Source: a virus | Length of the DNA stretch: 53,560 bases | Reading direction: 5' to 3' (one strand) | IMG/VR virus record: IMGVR_UViG_3300033182_000038 | Span: 1 to 53,560 of that record | Shown here: positions 37,752-45,782 of the stretch, one piece after another | Layout: every line of letters begins with the position of its first letter | Position numbering within the stretch: position 1 is the stretch's first letter | Notes under the pieces: model-generated | The model's database searches: none | Told to the model about the DNA's origin: nothing | The model's input: only the letters and a program-made list of their open reading frames with translations | Program-made: the position numbers and the translations under genes

Positions 37752-40700
37752 ATGGCTAAAGCCGGTCTTTCGTTCGCTAACCCGATGCTGGGAGCGATGG
37801 ATGTAAACATACCTTCAACTCCGATGGAGATCATGGAGGCGAACAAAGACTTTGGTCTCCAGTCGCTTGGCCCCACTATGGCTGATGCAGCCGTATACGG
37901 TCGTGCTCTGACTGAGAACGCTAGGTTTACACTACCTGACATGGACTCTCCGCAGGCTCCCCAAGGGCCACAGGTTAAGTACAGTCCATCTACCAAAAAG
38001 ATGTTTGTCAATGGTGCGTTGTTCGATGTCGAGAACGCAACGGCAGCACTTGAGTCCGAGCAGTACCTAGGCACAGAGCCTAAAGCTGCGCCTACCGATG
38101 TAGCTAACGACTGGATGACCCTGAGTCCGCAGGACTACGGCGCGTACATTAAGACAATCAAAGACCCATCAATCGGTCGCTTGATGTCTAAGAACTGGGA
38201 CATCGGTGTTAGCAACCTGAAACTTCTTGGTGGTCGTGGCCTACAGTTCCTCGGCTTTGAAGAAACTGGACAGGGTATTGTCGACCGGGCCGCAAAAGAA
38301 CTTGAGTACAACGAACCGTACCAGCGTGAGTTCACCAATATCGATTCAGTAGAGGGTGGTGTCGACTGGTTTGTCGCTAACCTTATGCAGCAAGGCCCGA
38401 ACCTACTTGAGTCTATTGCAGTAGCACTGGCGGGTTTCTTTGCCGGTACTACTCAGACTGGTAGCCCACTGGTCGGTGGTGGTACTGCCCTCGCTGCCCT
38501 TGCAGGTAAAGCTGAGTTCAAACGCCAAGTACTTGCTGCGGCACGCAAGCGCATGGCGGGCGAAGCCCTTAACCAAGCTGAGAAACGTGTGCTCCAGTCG
38601 GCTGCGGCTATGTCTGCGGTGGCTGCTAACAGCTATGCGATGGGTGTATCTGATATTTATGGTGAGTTGCGTGACACTGGCTCAGATGCTGGTGATGTCA
38701 GCTCTCGTTTGACTGCCCTTCTCGGTGGTATTCCTTACGCTGCTCTTGAGTCCATCCCTGAATTCATGATCGGCAAGCGTTTGCTTGGCGGTAAGATGAT
38801 CGGCGGTGCGAAAGGAGGTGCGTTGCGCCGTGGCATGACCGGTCTCGGTGTCGCTGGTACTGCTGAAGGTCTGACTGAAGCAGGTCAAGAAGGCTTACTC
38901 ATGGGTGCTGGTGCTATTGAGAACCAGTACGACTACTCTGACGAAGCCCTGAACCGTTTGGTCAACTCGTTCGCCGCAGGCTTTGCAGTCGGTGGCCCAA
39001 TGGGTGGTGTTGCCAACCTGCGTAAGGGTAAAGAATCTAACCTGCTTGACTCCGGCAGTGGCCCGAAACTTAGCGACAGCCGTGAGGTTGGCCCATACAC
39101 TGGCCCACGAGAAGGTGAGTTACTTGGCCCTGAAATGCCACCTGCTGCTCCTACTCCGCCGCTGCTCAGCGCACCGGTTCCGGATGTGGCAGTTGGTGAA
39201 CAGCCTAACTATGTGGTTGGCCCAGACGGAACAACCCGTCCTGCTACTGCACTTGACACCCCTGTAACTATCAATGCTCCTACCGTTCCGGGTCAGGCAG
39301 CAGGACAGCAAGGCGTGCTTAACGTGTTTGGCGGTCAGCCAATGACAGCAGAAGAACTTGCCACGCGTTTGAACCCGCAGTTGGCCGTAAGCGAACAGCT
39401 AAGCGGTGAACCTGCGCAGCAAGAAGTGGTCGGCCCACAGCAACCATCCCCACAGATGGAACTGCCGCTCGACTTTCAAGGTGCAAACGTACAGTCACAA
39501 GTTGCACAGACTCAGGCTCAAGGTCAGCCGATTAACGCGATGCAGGCGGCAATGCTTGCCGCTACGGAGAAGCGTGCTCAAGCTGCTGAGAAAGCAGCAC
39601 AGGAAGCAGAGGCCGCACGAGCGCGTGCCGAGCAGGAGCGTCAGGCTGAGCGTGAGAAATCCCAGCTACTTGAGCGTCAGTACCGCGAGATGGAACTGTC
39701 GATGGCGGAACAAGACCGCCGTGAAGCAGCCGCTCGCCCACTGGTACAGCAACAAGAATTACCTACCGTTCCGGCACAGCCTACTCCGCCTAAGCAACTC
39801 GATCTTTTCCGTGGTCAAGTCAAACTGCCACGCATGTCTAAGGCTCAGCAGGCAGCACAGCGTAAAGCACTGCGCCAGCAAGAGCGTGATGCACAGGCAG
39901 CACAAACTGCGGCTGAGCAGGCAGCATTACCACTGAGCGCACGAGTTACCCCTGCTGAGGCGTACCGTGAAGCTGGTCAGCTACCTCTCTTTACACAGCG
40001 TGGTGAGCCTTCGGTTGCCGCTCTAAGAAGTGCGGCTCCGACTACCCCTGTTGCAGCACCTGTAGTTGAAGAAGGTGCGACGCAAGCGCCTCCAACCGGC
40101 AGACAGGTTAATGCTCTGACTGCTGCGGTGGCTCGTGCTGAAGCGGCAGCTAAGGCTGCTGAGGAGGCAACCAAGAAAGCAGAGGAGGCAGCAAATGCCG
40201 TTCAAGAGCGAAGCACAGCGCAAGTGGATGTACGCGAACAACCCCAAGCTGGCACGGAAGTTCGAGGCAGAGACACCACAGAACAGCCAGTTACCACAGC
40301 GAAAGGCCAAACCCTCAGGAGAGGCAAAGCGCCGCAGGGAGCGGGAACTGTACGCCAAGAGGAAGCGGCAGCGACCGTTCGGGAAGCTGGTGACAGACAA
40401 GATAACGTACGGACAGATCAGGAAAAAGTCGATCAGCAAGTAGACACAGGCTTCGCTACACCAGTTGAAGCATGGGAAGAGATGGTCGATGTACTGCCTA
40501 ACGGCAGACCTGTTGTCGAGTTCGACAACCTACCTGATGCAGCTAAAGCTGAGTGGGAAGCGATTTACAAACGTGGCGAAGTTAACGGCTACGCTGCTGA
40601 AAACCTCATGTCTAAGTACGAAGACGACATGAACGCAGTCGACCGTTTGCACCAAGCAATCGCTACGGCTGAAAGCACCAGTGACATGAACGAGTTTGAG

Positions 40701-43700
40701 AACGCGATTCTCACCGTCATCGAACTGGCGTTTATCAACACCGACTCTAACAACGCCAAGACCCTGTCTACCTTCGGGTACTCAGTACGCGAGCGTGCTG
40801 AAGCCTTTATGAACAACACCACGTTTACAGGTGCGCAGTGGGAAATCATTGACGACGCTTTTGTAGGCGAGGTCAATGCGTTCGGCAAGATTGAGGGTGC
40901 GTACAAGTCTGGTGCTAACAAGGGTCAGGCCAAAGCGTGGATGAACTTCGCTGCACAGCGCGGGTTACTAGATTCCATCAAGGCCACCATTACCAATCCG
41001 CCTAAGTGGTACACCGATACTCTGGCTGCAACCAAAGGTGAACGTATTGGTACGACTGAGCAGGAAGCTGCTAAGGAAACCTTAACCTCAGCAGAGCAGA
41101 AGAACGCAGCTAAGCTGGCTGCGGAGTCTATTGCTGACCGCATCAAACGCATTGCCACTGGTGTGGATGTTATCCGCAACAAGGCAAACAGTAAGTTCGT
41201 CAAAGCTATCGAGGCTCTGTACGAAACCGCTGACAAGAACTACATGACTGACCGAGGTAAGATCGGTGAGTACTTCGACAAGGACGGTAAGCTGCGTCTA
41301 CGCAAGCGCGTGGACACTGGCACATTTACCCCTGTCAATAAAGAACTGACTGCTGAGCAGCTTAAGCAGCTTGAAGCCGATGAGCGTGCTGCAATGCAGG
41401 CTCGCAAGGACGCTGAGAAAGCTGAAGCTGAGGCAGAAGCTGAGGCAGTTAAACGCCTCAAGCGTGGTCAGAAAGAAACCGTTGTCCAAGAGGACACGTT
41501 CGACGACACCGTTTACGACGACGAGTACCAAGACATTATCGACTCGTTTGATAACTCGACTGACTCTAACGAGGGTATGTTCTACCGTGATGATGGATCA
41601 GTCATCAACACCACTGTTGGTATTGGTAAAGTCAAGCTGTTGGCTAAACAGTTCCTCGCTAAGCTGAAAGTCAAACCTAATCTAACTGTCGTCCGCAACA
41701 TGGCTGAACTGGCTGCTAAGTACCCAGAACTTTACGCTCGTGCGGCTAAGTCTGTTAAGAACTTTGAAGCAATGGCGGGTCGTGCTGTCGGCTTCTCTGT
41801 AGGCGATCAGGTGATTGTGTTCGCTGACCGTGTACGCACCGAAGATCAGCTTAAGTTTGTACTGGCTCACGAAGCACTAGGCCACTTCGGTCTGAAGTCT
41901 ATCCTGTCTCCGGCGCAGTTGAAGGCTGTCCTCAACGACATCTACAACAGCGATCCGTTTGTCCGTGCGCGTGTTGACCGCATGATGGCTACGGAAGGCA
42001 TGAGTCAGATGGAGGCTACCGAAGAAGTGCTAGCTGACATGGCTGGTGCTATCGACGCATCTACCATCGTGAAGATTTGGAACTTCATTAAGTCTGCTTT
42101 GAACAAGCTCGGCATGAAGTTCGGTGATGAGATGGCCCGCTACTGGGTAGGTCAAGCTCGTAGAAACATACGCACAGGTCATGGCGTTGTCAGTGCGCAG
42201 GTACTTGCGCGTAACCTTGACCGCCTAGCTAAGGAAACTAAATTCGGTCGCTTCTCACTGGAGCAAGACTCGGCTCGCCTAGCTAGTTCAGCGTTCGCCG
42301 CTAACGCGTTCAACAACAACTCGTTCGGTGTTCGTGGGTTCAAAGCCTTCTTCGAGCGCATTGCTGACGCTGACTTCACCTCTATTAGAGGCGGCATCAA
42401 TGACGTGGTATCTGCACTTTCTGAAACTGTCCAGACTCTGGATAACATGGCGACCCGAAGCGAGGGTCTTCAGAAGGTGTTTGAAATCTTCCAGAAGCAA
42501 GCGGCTCGTACTAAACGCTTCCTAACTAAGTACGAAGGTTTGACCACGTTCTCGCACACACCTAGCTGGACTGGTGGCCCAACTCAGGAAGAACTCCAGC
42601 AAGCTGGTGAACTCCTAGCCTACGCAGCACTGCTCAAGCGTGGTCAGTTGACCGACAAGATGATGAAGGACATGGGCGACCTGTTCACAATCGATCAGTA
42701 CGGCAACCCGCAACCTAACCCTGCCGTTGTGCAGCGCGTTATGGACGCAGGTAAAGTAAACCGTCAGGAGTTTGAAAAGGGCTTTACTGTTACTAACTCA
42801 TTGGGTGAGGAGATTCAGTACAAACCTGAGTTCGAGATCACTGACCGTATCTGGAAGGTGTTTGAGGAGCAGCGTAACGCTGTGAACCAATCGGCTCTTG
42901 ACGTACTGGAGGCTAACTTCTATGCCGCACACGAGCGTAAGCAGGCTGCGGTCGAAGGCTTCAAGGACTTTACCGGCACTGGTGGTGCGTTCACCGATGT
43001 AGATATTCAGGTACTCCAGCGAATCCTCAAAGAGTACGGCGACCTGTACACTGAAAACTCTGTCGACCAAGGCGGAAGCATCAAGATGAATCCGGAGTCT
43101 ATGAAAAAGGCTAACCGATTCCTTGCGGCTATCAACCGTGCTTTGTGGAACAAAGAGAAAGTCAAAGACTGGCAAGGCGGCACTGATACTGCGGCTGAGT
43201 TCCAAGACGAAAAGTACAAGGACATCATCAGCGCATTAGAGCGTTTGAATGGTATAGGTCTATCTGAAAATAAAGCGTATGAGGTTACTAACACCATCGC
43301 TAACATGTTCATGATGGACTCGCAGATTCAATCTGCACAGTTCTACGCCAAGCGTACCATCATGGGTGCATACGTTCCGTTCGTACGCCGTGGTAAGTAC
43401 CAAGTGGTGATGAAGGCATACGACAAAGACGGTAAGGCAGTCCGCTTGAACGGCGCATACCAGAGTTCAATGCCTTACTTCCAAGATGATTCTCGCTCCG
43501 GTGCGGACAGTCTAGTTTCAGAACTAGATGAGGCGTTCGGTGGAGACCGTGAGTTCGTGGTACTCAACTCTGACAATGAGGAGGTAACTGTAACCTTCCG
43601 TGCAGAGCGTTCGCGTACATTAGAAACCGCTCAAGTATCTAACAGCGTCGACTTCAACGAGTTCATCAACACAGTCAACCGCCTGAAGATCAGCATTACC

Positions 43701-45782
43701 CCGCAGGAACGCCACACAATCGTGGAAAACCTGACCAACATTAACTCTCGTGCTCGTAAGAACCTTGAGCGTAGTGGCTCTCCGGGCTGGGATAAGGATG
43801 TAATCCGTGCTACTTCTGAGTTCCTTGAGACTCAAGGTCACGTTGCAGGTAAAGCGTTCTACCGCCACAAGCTGAACGACATCATGGTCGACAAGAACTT
43901 GTGGCGCGGTAATCCAGAGAAACTACGCCGCTTGAAGAAGGCATACGAAGACGCTAAGAAGGGCGGCAACGAAGCACAGATCAAACAGGCTAAGACCGAG
44001 TACGACCGTTACGCATATATGTATATGCACATGGCGGACGCAGGTCAGGGTAAGACTGTTGAAATCAACGGTAAGAAAGAACCTACGTTGGGACGCGGCA
44101 ATGTGTACCTCGATCAGGCTAACCGTTTGCTCGATTGGTACTCTGACTCAGGCAACATCGTCGACAGTACTGAAGACTTGCTCTCCAGTGGTATCGGCTC
44201 GAAGCTGAAGATGTGGGCAGTGGTCATGCAGTTGGGTGGTTCAGTAGCCACGGCTGCTATCAACCTTGTGTCGTTGGTAACACACACCATCCCATACCTC
44301 TCGACCTATAACCCTAAGCGTGGTTTCGGTGGCGGCTTCGGTGCTTCTAAGACTGCGGCTAACGTATATCGTGCGGCGGCTAACCTTAAGAATCCTAAGC
44401 TGTCAGATGTTAAGCACCTCGATGAAGTCGTTGCTAGTAAAGAACTCCAACAGAAGTATGGTCTATCGCAAGCGGAAGCGCAGTTCCTGCGTGACGCCAC
44501 GGCTGAGGGTGTACTTCAGGCGGCACAGTTCAACGCCCTAGTAGGTACGGCACGCGGCGGCGTCCGTAATAACAACACCGCAGGATTTATCCAAGCGTGG
44601 ATGAGCATGTTCTCATACACCGAGCAAATGAACCGTCGCGTAACGGCACTGGCTGCGTACCGTATGGAGCGTGAGCGTTCACTGGCGGCAGGATTGTCCG
44701 AGCAGGCGGCACTGGAGCGTGCTGCTGAAGAAGCATACAAGGCTGTGAACAAATCGCAGGGTGAGTACGCTATGTACAACCGCCCAGAGATGGCTCGCGG
44801 TAACGTACTCCAATACATCTTTATGTATAAGCAGTTCGTAATCATCAGCGTCCAGTTGATGAAGGGTCTGAGTCCGAAGGGCCGCGTGATGTTCCTCGGT
44901 ATGCTTTTCCTGATGTCAGGTATGAAGGGTATCCCGTTCGCTGACGACATCATGGACTTGATCGATACGCTTGCTCAGATGTTCGGCATCAAGATGGGTA
45001 GCTTCGAGAAAGAAATTGCAGGGTTCGTTGACGAGATCGCACCGGGCATGTCACCGGTTGTCATGCGTGGTCTGATGGATAGATACACTGGTATGACAGT
45101 GTCCACGCGCCTCGGTTTCGGTGACTTGATTCCTCTGTCTGGTGCGTTCAGAGCGGGTGCTGACCCTGCTCGTGAGTTGGAAAACTTTGCAGGCCCAGTA
45201 TGGTCAGGCATGGCAGGACTGGTAGGTTTGGGTACTCAGCTTGGTCGTTATGGCGCAGAAGCTATCGGCTTGCGTGAGGATGTCACATCGCTCAGTTCAA
45301 TCATGCGTAACCAACCTATCGCGGCAGTCCGTAATATGGCAGATGGCCTGACCTACTTGAACGACGGTTCGATCACCAATGCTCAGGGTAAGTTAGTATC
45401 ACCTGAGGTTTCAAACGTAGTGGCACTTGGTCGTATGTTCGGCTTCTACCCTGCGGTAGCTACGAGAGATAACGACGTAGTTCGTATGAGTAAGTTTGCA
45501 GGAGATCACGCCAACGCAATTCGTAAGGAGTTCACTGATGCCTACGTTAAGGCGGCGGTATCGAACGACAGCGAAGAAATGATGCGGGTTAAGATGCTCG
45601 TGAAAGAGTGGAACATGGACAACCGTGGTACTCCATACGAGTACAGAACTTGGTTCCAGACTGCTCCGAGAGCGGCGCGTGAAGCTAAGAAGCCAACCCT
45701 TCTCCGCTATAAGAAGTCGGCCCCTACCAGTATGCGTAAGGAGATCGACGACTTAATGCGGATATACGGTGTGGAATACTGA
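37752..45782 (+). CDS. Giant internal virion (ejection) protein with zincin-like motif, 2676 aa
   Basis: One uninterrupted frame. The N-terminal part has Gly/Ala-rich, membrane-like stretches (for example VALAGFFAGTTQTGSPLVGG). A long Gln/Ala/Glu-rich, coiled-coil linker spans about 560-900. Around 1369-1384 the motif LAHEALGHFGLKSIL (H1373, E1374, H1378) matches zincin-type peptidases of phage polyvalent proteins. The last 650 residues look like the LPD38/PLxRFG-type end of such proteins. It probably opens the cell wall or forms the DNA conduit on entry. A separate gene is nested at residues 815-898. Confidence 0.85.
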   Translation: MAKAGLSFANPMLGAMDVNIPSTPMEIMEANKDFGLQSLGPTMADAAVYGRALTENARFTLPDMDSPQAPQGPQVKYSPSTKKMFVNGALFDVENATAALESEQYLGTEPKAAPTDVANDWMTLSPQDYGAYIKTIKDPSIGRLMSKNWDIGVSNLKLLGGRGLQFLGFEETGQGIVDRAAKELEYNEPYQREFTNIDSVEGGVDWFVANLMQQGPNLLESIAVALAGFFAGTTQTGSPLVGGGTALAALAGKAEFKRQVLAAARKRMAGEALNQAEKRVLQSAAAMSAVAANSYAMGVSDIYGELRDTGSDAGDVSSRLTALLGGIPYAALESIPEFMIGKRLLGGKMIGGAKGGALRRGMTGLGVAGTAEGLTEAGQEGLLMGAGAIENQYDYSDEALNRLVNSFAAGFAVGGPMGGVANLRKGKESNLLDSGSGPKLSDSREVGPYTGPREGELLGPEMPPAAPTPPLLSAPVPDVAVGEQPNYVVGPDGTTRPATALDTPVTINAPTVPGQAAGQQGVLNVFGGQPMTAEELATRLNPQLAVSEQLSGEPAQQEVVGPQQPSPQMELPLDFQGANVQSQVAQTQAQGQPINAMQAAMLAATEKRAQAAEKAAQEAEAARARAEQERQAEREKSQLLERQYREMELSMAEQDRREAAARPLVQQQELPTVPAQPTPPKQLDLFRGQVKLPRMSKAQQAAQRKALRQQERDAQAAQTAAEQAALPLSARVTPAEAYREAGQLPLFTQRGEPSVAALRSAAPTTPVAAPVVEEGATQAPPTGRQVNALTAAVARAEAAAKAAEEATKKAEEAANAVQERSTAQVDVREQPQAGTEVRGRDTTEQPVTTAKGQTLRRGKAPQGAGTVRQEEAAATVREAGDRQDNVRTDQEKVDQQVDTGFATPVEAWEEMVDVLPNGRPVVEFDNLPDAAKAEWEAIYKRGEVNGYAAENLMSKYEDDMNAVDRLHQAIATAESTSDMNEFENAILTVIELAFINTDSNNAKTLSTFGYSVRERAEAFMNNTTFTGAQWEIIDDAFVGEVNAFGKIEGAYKSGANKGQAKAWMNFAAQRGLLDSIKATITNPPKWYTDTLAATKGERIGTTEQEAAKETLTSAEQKNAAKLAAESIADRIKRIATGVDVIRNKANSKFVKAIEALYETADKNYMTDRGKIGEYFDKDGKLRLRKRVDTGTFTPVNKELTAEQLKQLEADERAAMQARKDAEKAEAEAEAEAVKRLKRGQKETVVQEDTFDDTVYDDEYQDIIDSFDNSTDSNEGMFYRDDGSVINTTVGIGKVKLLAKQFLAKLKVKPNLTVVRNMAELAAKYPELYARAAKSVKNFEAMAGRAVGFSVGDQVIVFADRVRTEDQLKFVLAHEALGHFGLKSILSPAQLKAVLNDIYNSDPFVRARVDRMMATEGMSQMEATEEVLADMAGAIDASTIVKIWNFIKSALNKLGMKFGDEMARYWVGQARRNIRTGHGVVSAQVLARNLDRLAKETKFGRFSLEQDSARLASSAFAANAFNNNSFGVRGFKAFFERIADADFTSIRGGINDVVSALSETVQTLDNMATRSEGLQKVFEIFQKQAARTKRFLTKYEGLTTFSHTPSWTGGPTQEELQQAGELLAYAALLKRGQLTDKMMKDMGDLFTIDQYGNPQPNPAVVQRVMDAGKVNRQEFEKGFTVTNSLGEEIQYKPEFEITDRIWKVFEEQRNAVNQSALDVLEANFYAAHERKQAAVEGFKDFTGTGGAFTDVDIQVLQRILKEYGDLYTENSVDQGGSIKMNPESMKKANRFLAAINRALWNKEKVKDWQGGTDTAAEFQDEKYKDIISALERLNGIGLSENKAYEVTNTIANMFMMDSQIQSAQFYAKRTIMGAYVPFVRRGKYQVVMKAYDKDGKAVRLNGAYQSSMPYFQDDSRSGADSLVSELDEAFGGDREFVVLNSDNEEVTVTFRAERSRTLETAQVSNSVDFNEFINTVNRLKISITPQERHTIVENLTNINSRARKNLERSGSPGWDKDVIRATSEFLETQGHVAGKAFYRHKLNDIMVDKNLWRGNPEKLRRLKKAYEDAKKGGNEAQIKQAKTEYDRYAYMYMHMADAGQGKTVEINGKKEPTLGRGNVYLDQANRLLDWYSDSGNIVDSTEDLLSSGIGSKLKMWAVVMQLGGSVATAAINLVSLVTHTIPYLSTYNPKRGFGGGFGASKTAANVYRAAANLKNPKLSDVKHLDEVVASKELQQKYGLSQAEAQFLRDATAEGVLQAAQFNALVGTARGGVRNNNTAGFIQAWMSMFSYTEQMNRRVTALAAYRMERERSLAAGLSEQAALERAAEEAYKAVNKSQGEYAMYNRPEMARGNVLQYIFMYKQFVIISVQLMKGLSPKGRVMFLGMLFLMSGMKGIPFADDIMDLIDTLAQMFGIKMGSFEKEIAGFVDEIAPGMSPVVMRGLMDRYTGMTVSTRLGFGDLIPLSGAFRAGADPARELENFAGPVWSGMAGLVGLGTQLGRYGAEAIGLREDVTSLSSIMRNQPIAAVRNMADGLTYLNDGSITNAQGKLVSPEVSNVVALGRMFGFYPAVATRDNDVVRMSKFAGDHANAIRKEFTDAYVKAAVSNDSEEMMRVKMLVKEWNMDNRGTPYEYRTWFQTAPRAAREAKKPTLLRYKKSAPTSMRKEIDDLMRIYGVEY
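40195..40443 (+). CDS. Nested small basic protein in another frame of the giant gene, 82 aa
   Basis: GAGGAGG lies seven bases before an ATG that opens MPFKSEAQRKWMYANNPKLA, a start shared by a family of small phage proteins of the MPFKSxAQxxWMYA type. The frame continues RKFEAETPQN, is very basic (AKRRRERELYAKRKRQR) and ends after QIRKKSISK. It is the +1 frame relative to the giant gene, where the same DNA encodes a low-complexity linker. Codons favour AAG and GC-ending triplets. All these points suggest a real overprinted or embedded gene. Confidence 0.7.
   Translation: MPFKSEAQRKWMYANNPKLARKFEAETPQNSQLPQRKAKPSGEAKRRRERELYAKRKRQRPFGKLVTDKITYGQIRKKSISK

Follow-up and report, generated by a model that had tools for sequence, protein, structure and literature searches.

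A small gene nested in a giant phage gene

The window analysed here is a stretch of 53,560 nucleotides (IMG/VR virus record IMGVR_UViG_3300033182_000038); it is the genome of a tailed phage and encodes terminase, portal-like and internal virion proteins. A giant gene sits at the end of its structural block, and a small open reading frame (ORF) lies within it. The features of the locus are the following:

37,752–45,782, + strand: giant ORF, the host frame, 2676 aa; its C-terminal part matches PHROG 11358
40,182–40,188, + strand: Shine-Dalgarno sequence GAGGAGG, 6 nt before the ATG, read from the sequence and recurrent in nested relatives
40,195–40,443, + strand: nested small gene of the MPFKS family, 82 aa, assigned from the ORF list, homologues, phase and selection
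40,197–40,439, + strand: giant-frame reading of the overlap, a hydrophilic linker that is mostly the shadow of the nested gene

The product of the nested ORF is MPFKSEAQRKWMYANNPKLARKFEAETPQNSQLPQRKAKPSGEAKRRRERELYAKRKRQRPFGKLVTDKITYGQIRKKSISK. The ORF starts 2443 nt into the giant ORF, hence in its +1 frame, and is wholly contained in it on the same strand. The original prediction had described an 82-codon +1-frame ORF with GAGGAGG before its ATG, a basic product, GC-ending codons and a linker in the giant frame over the same DNA, and each of these elements was recovered. The nested protein has a predicted pI of 11.1, 77% of its codons end in G or C (GC3 of 0.77 vs 0.54 for the giant), and the giant frame reads there as the hydrophilic linker AVQERSTAQVDVREQPQAGTEVRGRDTTEQ..., with a predicted pI of 5.4. 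The preference for GC-ending codons arises because the third base of a nested codon is the first base of a giant codon, where T is depleted.

The length of the ORF alone was rejected as evidence for a nested gene, because synonymous shuffles of the giant yield by chance 0.55 ATG ORFs of at least 82 codons in the two alternative frames. When a Shine-Dalgarno sequence is required as well, the expected number of such ORFs falls to 0.023 in the same shuffles. The nested ORF is nevertheless, on comparative sequence evidence, not a chance ORF, and what decides the matter are its homologues, phase, start codon and ribosome-binding site together with the depressed synonymous change in the giant frame. 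The vicinity of the nested gene showed no sigma-70-like promoter. Between 37,752 and 45,782, one more alternative-frame ATG ORF of at least 82 codons is present, without a Shine-Dalgarno sequence, which is about the chance expectation.

The C-terminal part of the giant matches PHROG 11358 (E=2.8e-49). Its distant relatives in F116-like phages are annotated as carrying a PLxRFG domain or as DarB-like, and other giants hosting nested genes match the DarB-like PHROG 10089, LPD38 or, weakly, LPD39; the giants of L042 and L051 match both PHROG 11358 and PHROG 10089. DarB-like and other large polyvalent proteins have been described as injected along with DNA (Iyer 2017, PMC5512222), in a paper where a term search did not retrieve the word "overlap". 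The window giant resembles these giant multidomain phage proteins, which some hosts of nested genes match, but differs from them in having no match in Pfam. From the PHROG 11358 match and the families matched by other giants that host nested genes, its designation as an ejection protein is plausible. Two relatives (L123 and L164) encode the giant in two pieces, an N-terminal ORF and a C-terminal one of about 1900 aa, separated by other ORFs; in L123 the N-terminal piece carries the nested gene.

Relatives of the nested protein and selection in the overlap

Taken alone, the window nested protein had no significant match in Pfam or PHROG and reached PHROG 1375 with E=0.11 only, while three of its relatives gave weak but significant matches to this family (E=3.5e-4 to 4.6e-3). 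It shares with PHROG 1375 the N-terminal core that is common to stand-alone and nested relatives, and differs by a longer basic C-terminal half. Scanning IMG/VR with the window protein retrieved 16 relatives; a three-sequence alignment as query raised this to 354, and the 80 best of these were retained. These relatives occur in three arrangements, namely as stand-alone genes of about 40–60 codons, as the N-terminal part of a larger ORF, or nested in a giant ORF. Varied phages have stand-alone copies, among them isolates that infect cyanobacteria and Streptomyces, and the genes nearby code for tail fibres, terminase and lysis proteins. On the basis of these matches, the nested protein is a member of a widespread family of small phage proteins (MPFKSEAQRKWMYANxPK..., around PHROG 1375) that is often encoded by a stand-alone gene.

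A separate IMG/VR scan used the C-terminal region of the giant only and gave a sample of 44 giants (window included, some near-identical) with the upstream stop within the locus. The MPFKS gene was carried by 36 of them, all in the same phase, while 3 of the 44 had an unrelated gene, termed here MPLKKG, and 5 had neither. Over both scans, 63 distinct MPFKS copies were found in ORFs of at least 250 aa, 62 starting with ATG and one with GTG; none (0/63) was in the other phase, a few cases in short ORFs not being true nesting. A Shine-Dalgarno four-mer precedes 56 of the 56 distinct testable copies in ORFs of at least 900 aa, all in one phase, against a background of 466/5446 (8.6%) for the other +1-frame ATGs of the same giants. 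L052 was left out since its nested gene begins before the overlapping ORF. Every nested case is a metagenomic contig; neither blastn of the region nor tblastn of the nested proteins and the giant N-terminus found a cultivated phage with the nested arrangement, and no such giants were found in bacterial genomes. MPFKS genes were also seen nested in two ORFs of about 400 aa without a PHROG match (L086:3105-4307 and L097:560-1855), which are possible independent host genes.

Selection was assessed in 24 independent pairs, at giant-frame fourfold sites where the amino acid is conserved. Only 17/397 such sites differed inside the overlap, as compared with 4291/13271 outside (P=7e-43), while 124/499 (25%) of the nested-frame fourfold sites differed. 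Differences in the overlap were distributed over nested codon positions as 268/199/424, and the overlap was among the 5% of windows with the lowest fourfold divergence in 12 of the 14 full-length pairs. In two pairs (L176/L179 and L029/L038), synonymous change was not depressed relative to their own flanks. The second family behaved in the same way as the first, with 1/107 giant fourfold sites differing inside and 1283/2590 outside. The fourfold and codon-position patterns therefore indicate that the nested protein is the constrained product. Selection on the inner frame is strong, and on the outer frame it is visible as the absence of stops and a scarcity of T-initial codons, being otherwise weak: T occupies the first codon position of the giant frame in 2.5% of the overlap codons, against 11.1% for the 80 codons flanking it on either side and 14.4% for the remainder. 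Homology and synonymous-site conservation, on which the original prediction had made its gene depend, both came out on the side of the gene, with many homologues standing alone and giant-frame synonymous variation strongly reduced.

One site with exchangeable contents

In four relatives (L132, L133, L135 and L145), the MPFKS gene is lacking and the ORF MPLKKGSSNKVVSANV... is found instead at about residue 790 of the giant, in the same phase (truncated in L135). Its product, which begins MPLKKGSS, matched PHROG 2423 (E=1e-7), with DUF6496 below the cut-off. MPLKKG relatives are stand-alone in many phages and also nested in further giants, one of which (L230) was missed by the W-type profile. 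In close relatives these PHROG 2423/DUF6496-like proteins sit at the slot of the MPFKS gene and in its phase, but no sequence relation to the window nested protein was detected, and a profile of the family found no copy in the window. Of two further relatives with the slot at about residue 790, L125 carries neither gene and L127 carries MPFKS with a GTG start. The downstream DNA is 94.0% identical between L125 and L133, 91.1% between L125 and L127, and 89.9% between L127 and L133. In the alignment the cassette is absent from L125 and the Shine-Dalgarno sequence is weakened; this empty slot may be the ancestral state or a deletion. Neither known gene was present in L130, L164, L166 and L183. 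Beyond what the original prediction contained, the arrangement is widespread, and the site works as a slot that two or more unrelated families can occupy.

Two pairs (L176/L179 and L184/L185) have a slot more divergent than their near-identical flanks, suggestive of recent exchange; for L176/L179 exchange could account for this difference.

In the giant-type frame, stand-alone MPFKS genes average 4.6 stops per 40 codons and 0/39 are open, while 14/39 are open in frame +1. Nested copies have no stop in the giant-type frame, and T is found at 2% of their third positions vs 22% in stand-alone genes. The loss of stops and the depletion of T fit the capture of a stand-alone gene followed by recoding. 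The use of the harder phase by every copy points to common ancestry of the slot, or to exchanges by way of a ribosome-binding site in common; a phase this constant among very different giants may reflect one old slot rather than repeated capture.

It is highly probable that a complete small gene of an often stand-alone family was captured in a linker of the giant late gene, at a slot whose content can be exchanged and which the giant reads through. The small gene would most likely have entered the linker as an insertion, and its translation would probably start internally on the giant mRNA, from the Shine-Dalgarno sequence of the small gene itself. Ribosomes making the giant would read the same DNA in the other frame and, as far as the sequence tells, gain a hydrophilic linker segment only. 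The substitution patterns show strong purifying selection on the small protein, the giant frame being mainly kept free of stops and T-initial codons. Comparison of relatives shows the site acting as a slot. Which changes were gains and which were losses is deduced, and most copies would descend with the giant, with occasional exchange. Between the two origins offered by the original prediction, birth of a new protein at this place or capture of a small gene that the giant frame reads through, the evidence favours capture, because stand-alone relatives exist, the giant reading is less constrained, and the same site is empty or otherwise filled in close relatives.

Other explanations differ in what is translated. 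The ORF could be left untranslated, with the DNA conserved as an RNA element, as a site of recombination, or on account of the giant frame. This is very improbable given that variation tracks nested codons, that nested synonymous sites are free to vary, that the start and Shine-Dalgarno sequence are conserved and that the protein stands alone elsewhere. Least probable of all is a product made by frameshifting, which would be a variant form of the giant and no protein in its own right. Upstream of the ATG, the nested frame of the window is indeed open for 25 codons, but many relatives have an in-frame stop 0–4 codons upstream, and the ATG and Shine-Dalgarno sequence are conserved; in L044/L046 the stop immediately precedes the nested ATG and therefore excludes a frameshift product there.

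With a translated small protein, the question becomes where it came from. It is improbable that it was born by de novo overprinting inside the giant gene and later escaped to a stand-alone life. Such a birth would agree with the abundance of nested copies and with their being passed on mostly along with the giant (Mantel r=0.62 between nested and giant distances), but the stand-alone copies of cyanobacterial and Streptomyces isolates and other varied phages, the recoded look of the nested copies at third-position T, and the second, unrelated family that occupies the same slot and is also stand-alone elsewhere all argue against it. Less easily set aside, though still rather unlikely, is a single ancient capture in the common ancestor of the giants, inherited since with later loss or replacement and involving no general docking slot. 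It would agree with the same distance correlation, with the single phase throughout even though +1 is easier to keep open, and with the C-terminal PHROGs still shared by giants that the W-type profile missed. Against it stand the empty, MPFKS and MPLKKG states among close relatives, and the conflict between nearest nested relative and nearest giant in L127, L143, L169 and L171. Returning to capture at an exchangeable slot, we are somewhat inclined to a broader proposal, in which the genes for giant injected proteins in tailed phages would have an overprinting dock. This would be a site in the linker, provided with a ribosome-binding site and fixed in phase, at which whole small genes from unrelated families are inserted and exchanged, each being recoded to keep the giant frame open.

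In lambda, Rz1 is a functional gene nested out of frame in the phage gene Rz, and the two are fixed lysis partners. The window locus shares this out-of-frame nesting but differs in that its slot is exchangeable among unrelated families, whereas nested genes of the Rz/Rz1 type are not known to undergo exchange with unrelated families at one site. Gene callers that limit same-strand overlap likely miss such nested genes, and small phage proteins may therefore be under-counted. In overprinted viral genes the inner gene is usually new and without homologues (reviewed in PMC8227390). The window locus is like these in having one gene fully inside another, on the same strand and in the +1 frame, with coding for two proteins; it differs in that the inner protein has independent, stand-alone relatives, the outer segment looks derived and the site is exchangeable. 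It would thus be the reverse of usual overprinting, with an established small gene inside a giant gene and the giant's reading as the later addition. How overlaps arise can be followed by natural comparison among close relatives, in which the site is empty or has either filling; these relatives also suggest that a virus can hold genes which overprint others and are open to exchange. At the protein level, the motif NAVQxRSxAxVDVRxQ is shared by the giants of L042, L044, L051, L063, L088 and L092, which the W-type profile missed, only because the nested gene forces it; this shadow could mislead domain searches.

Predicted structure and possible role of the small protein

The AlphaFold model of the nested protein has a mean pLDDT of 82, with helices at residues 6–15, 17–26, 42–58 and 63–78 and a confident first half. 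Searched against a viral structure library, it retrieved small uncharacterised phage proteins only, none with E<=0.001, and the PDB gave nothing useful; Pfam and solved structures provided no family for the protein. Since the model of the second-family protein is poor (pLDDT 64), no shared fold is claimed for the two families. The product may tentatively be viewed as a small, basic, helical late protein acting with the head, the DNA or the ejected giant. In L017:5001-8528, the MPFKS core starts a stretch of 1176 aa with Phage_Mu_F, C39-like peptidase and HNH domains, and this fusion to a MuF head protein is the only informative one.
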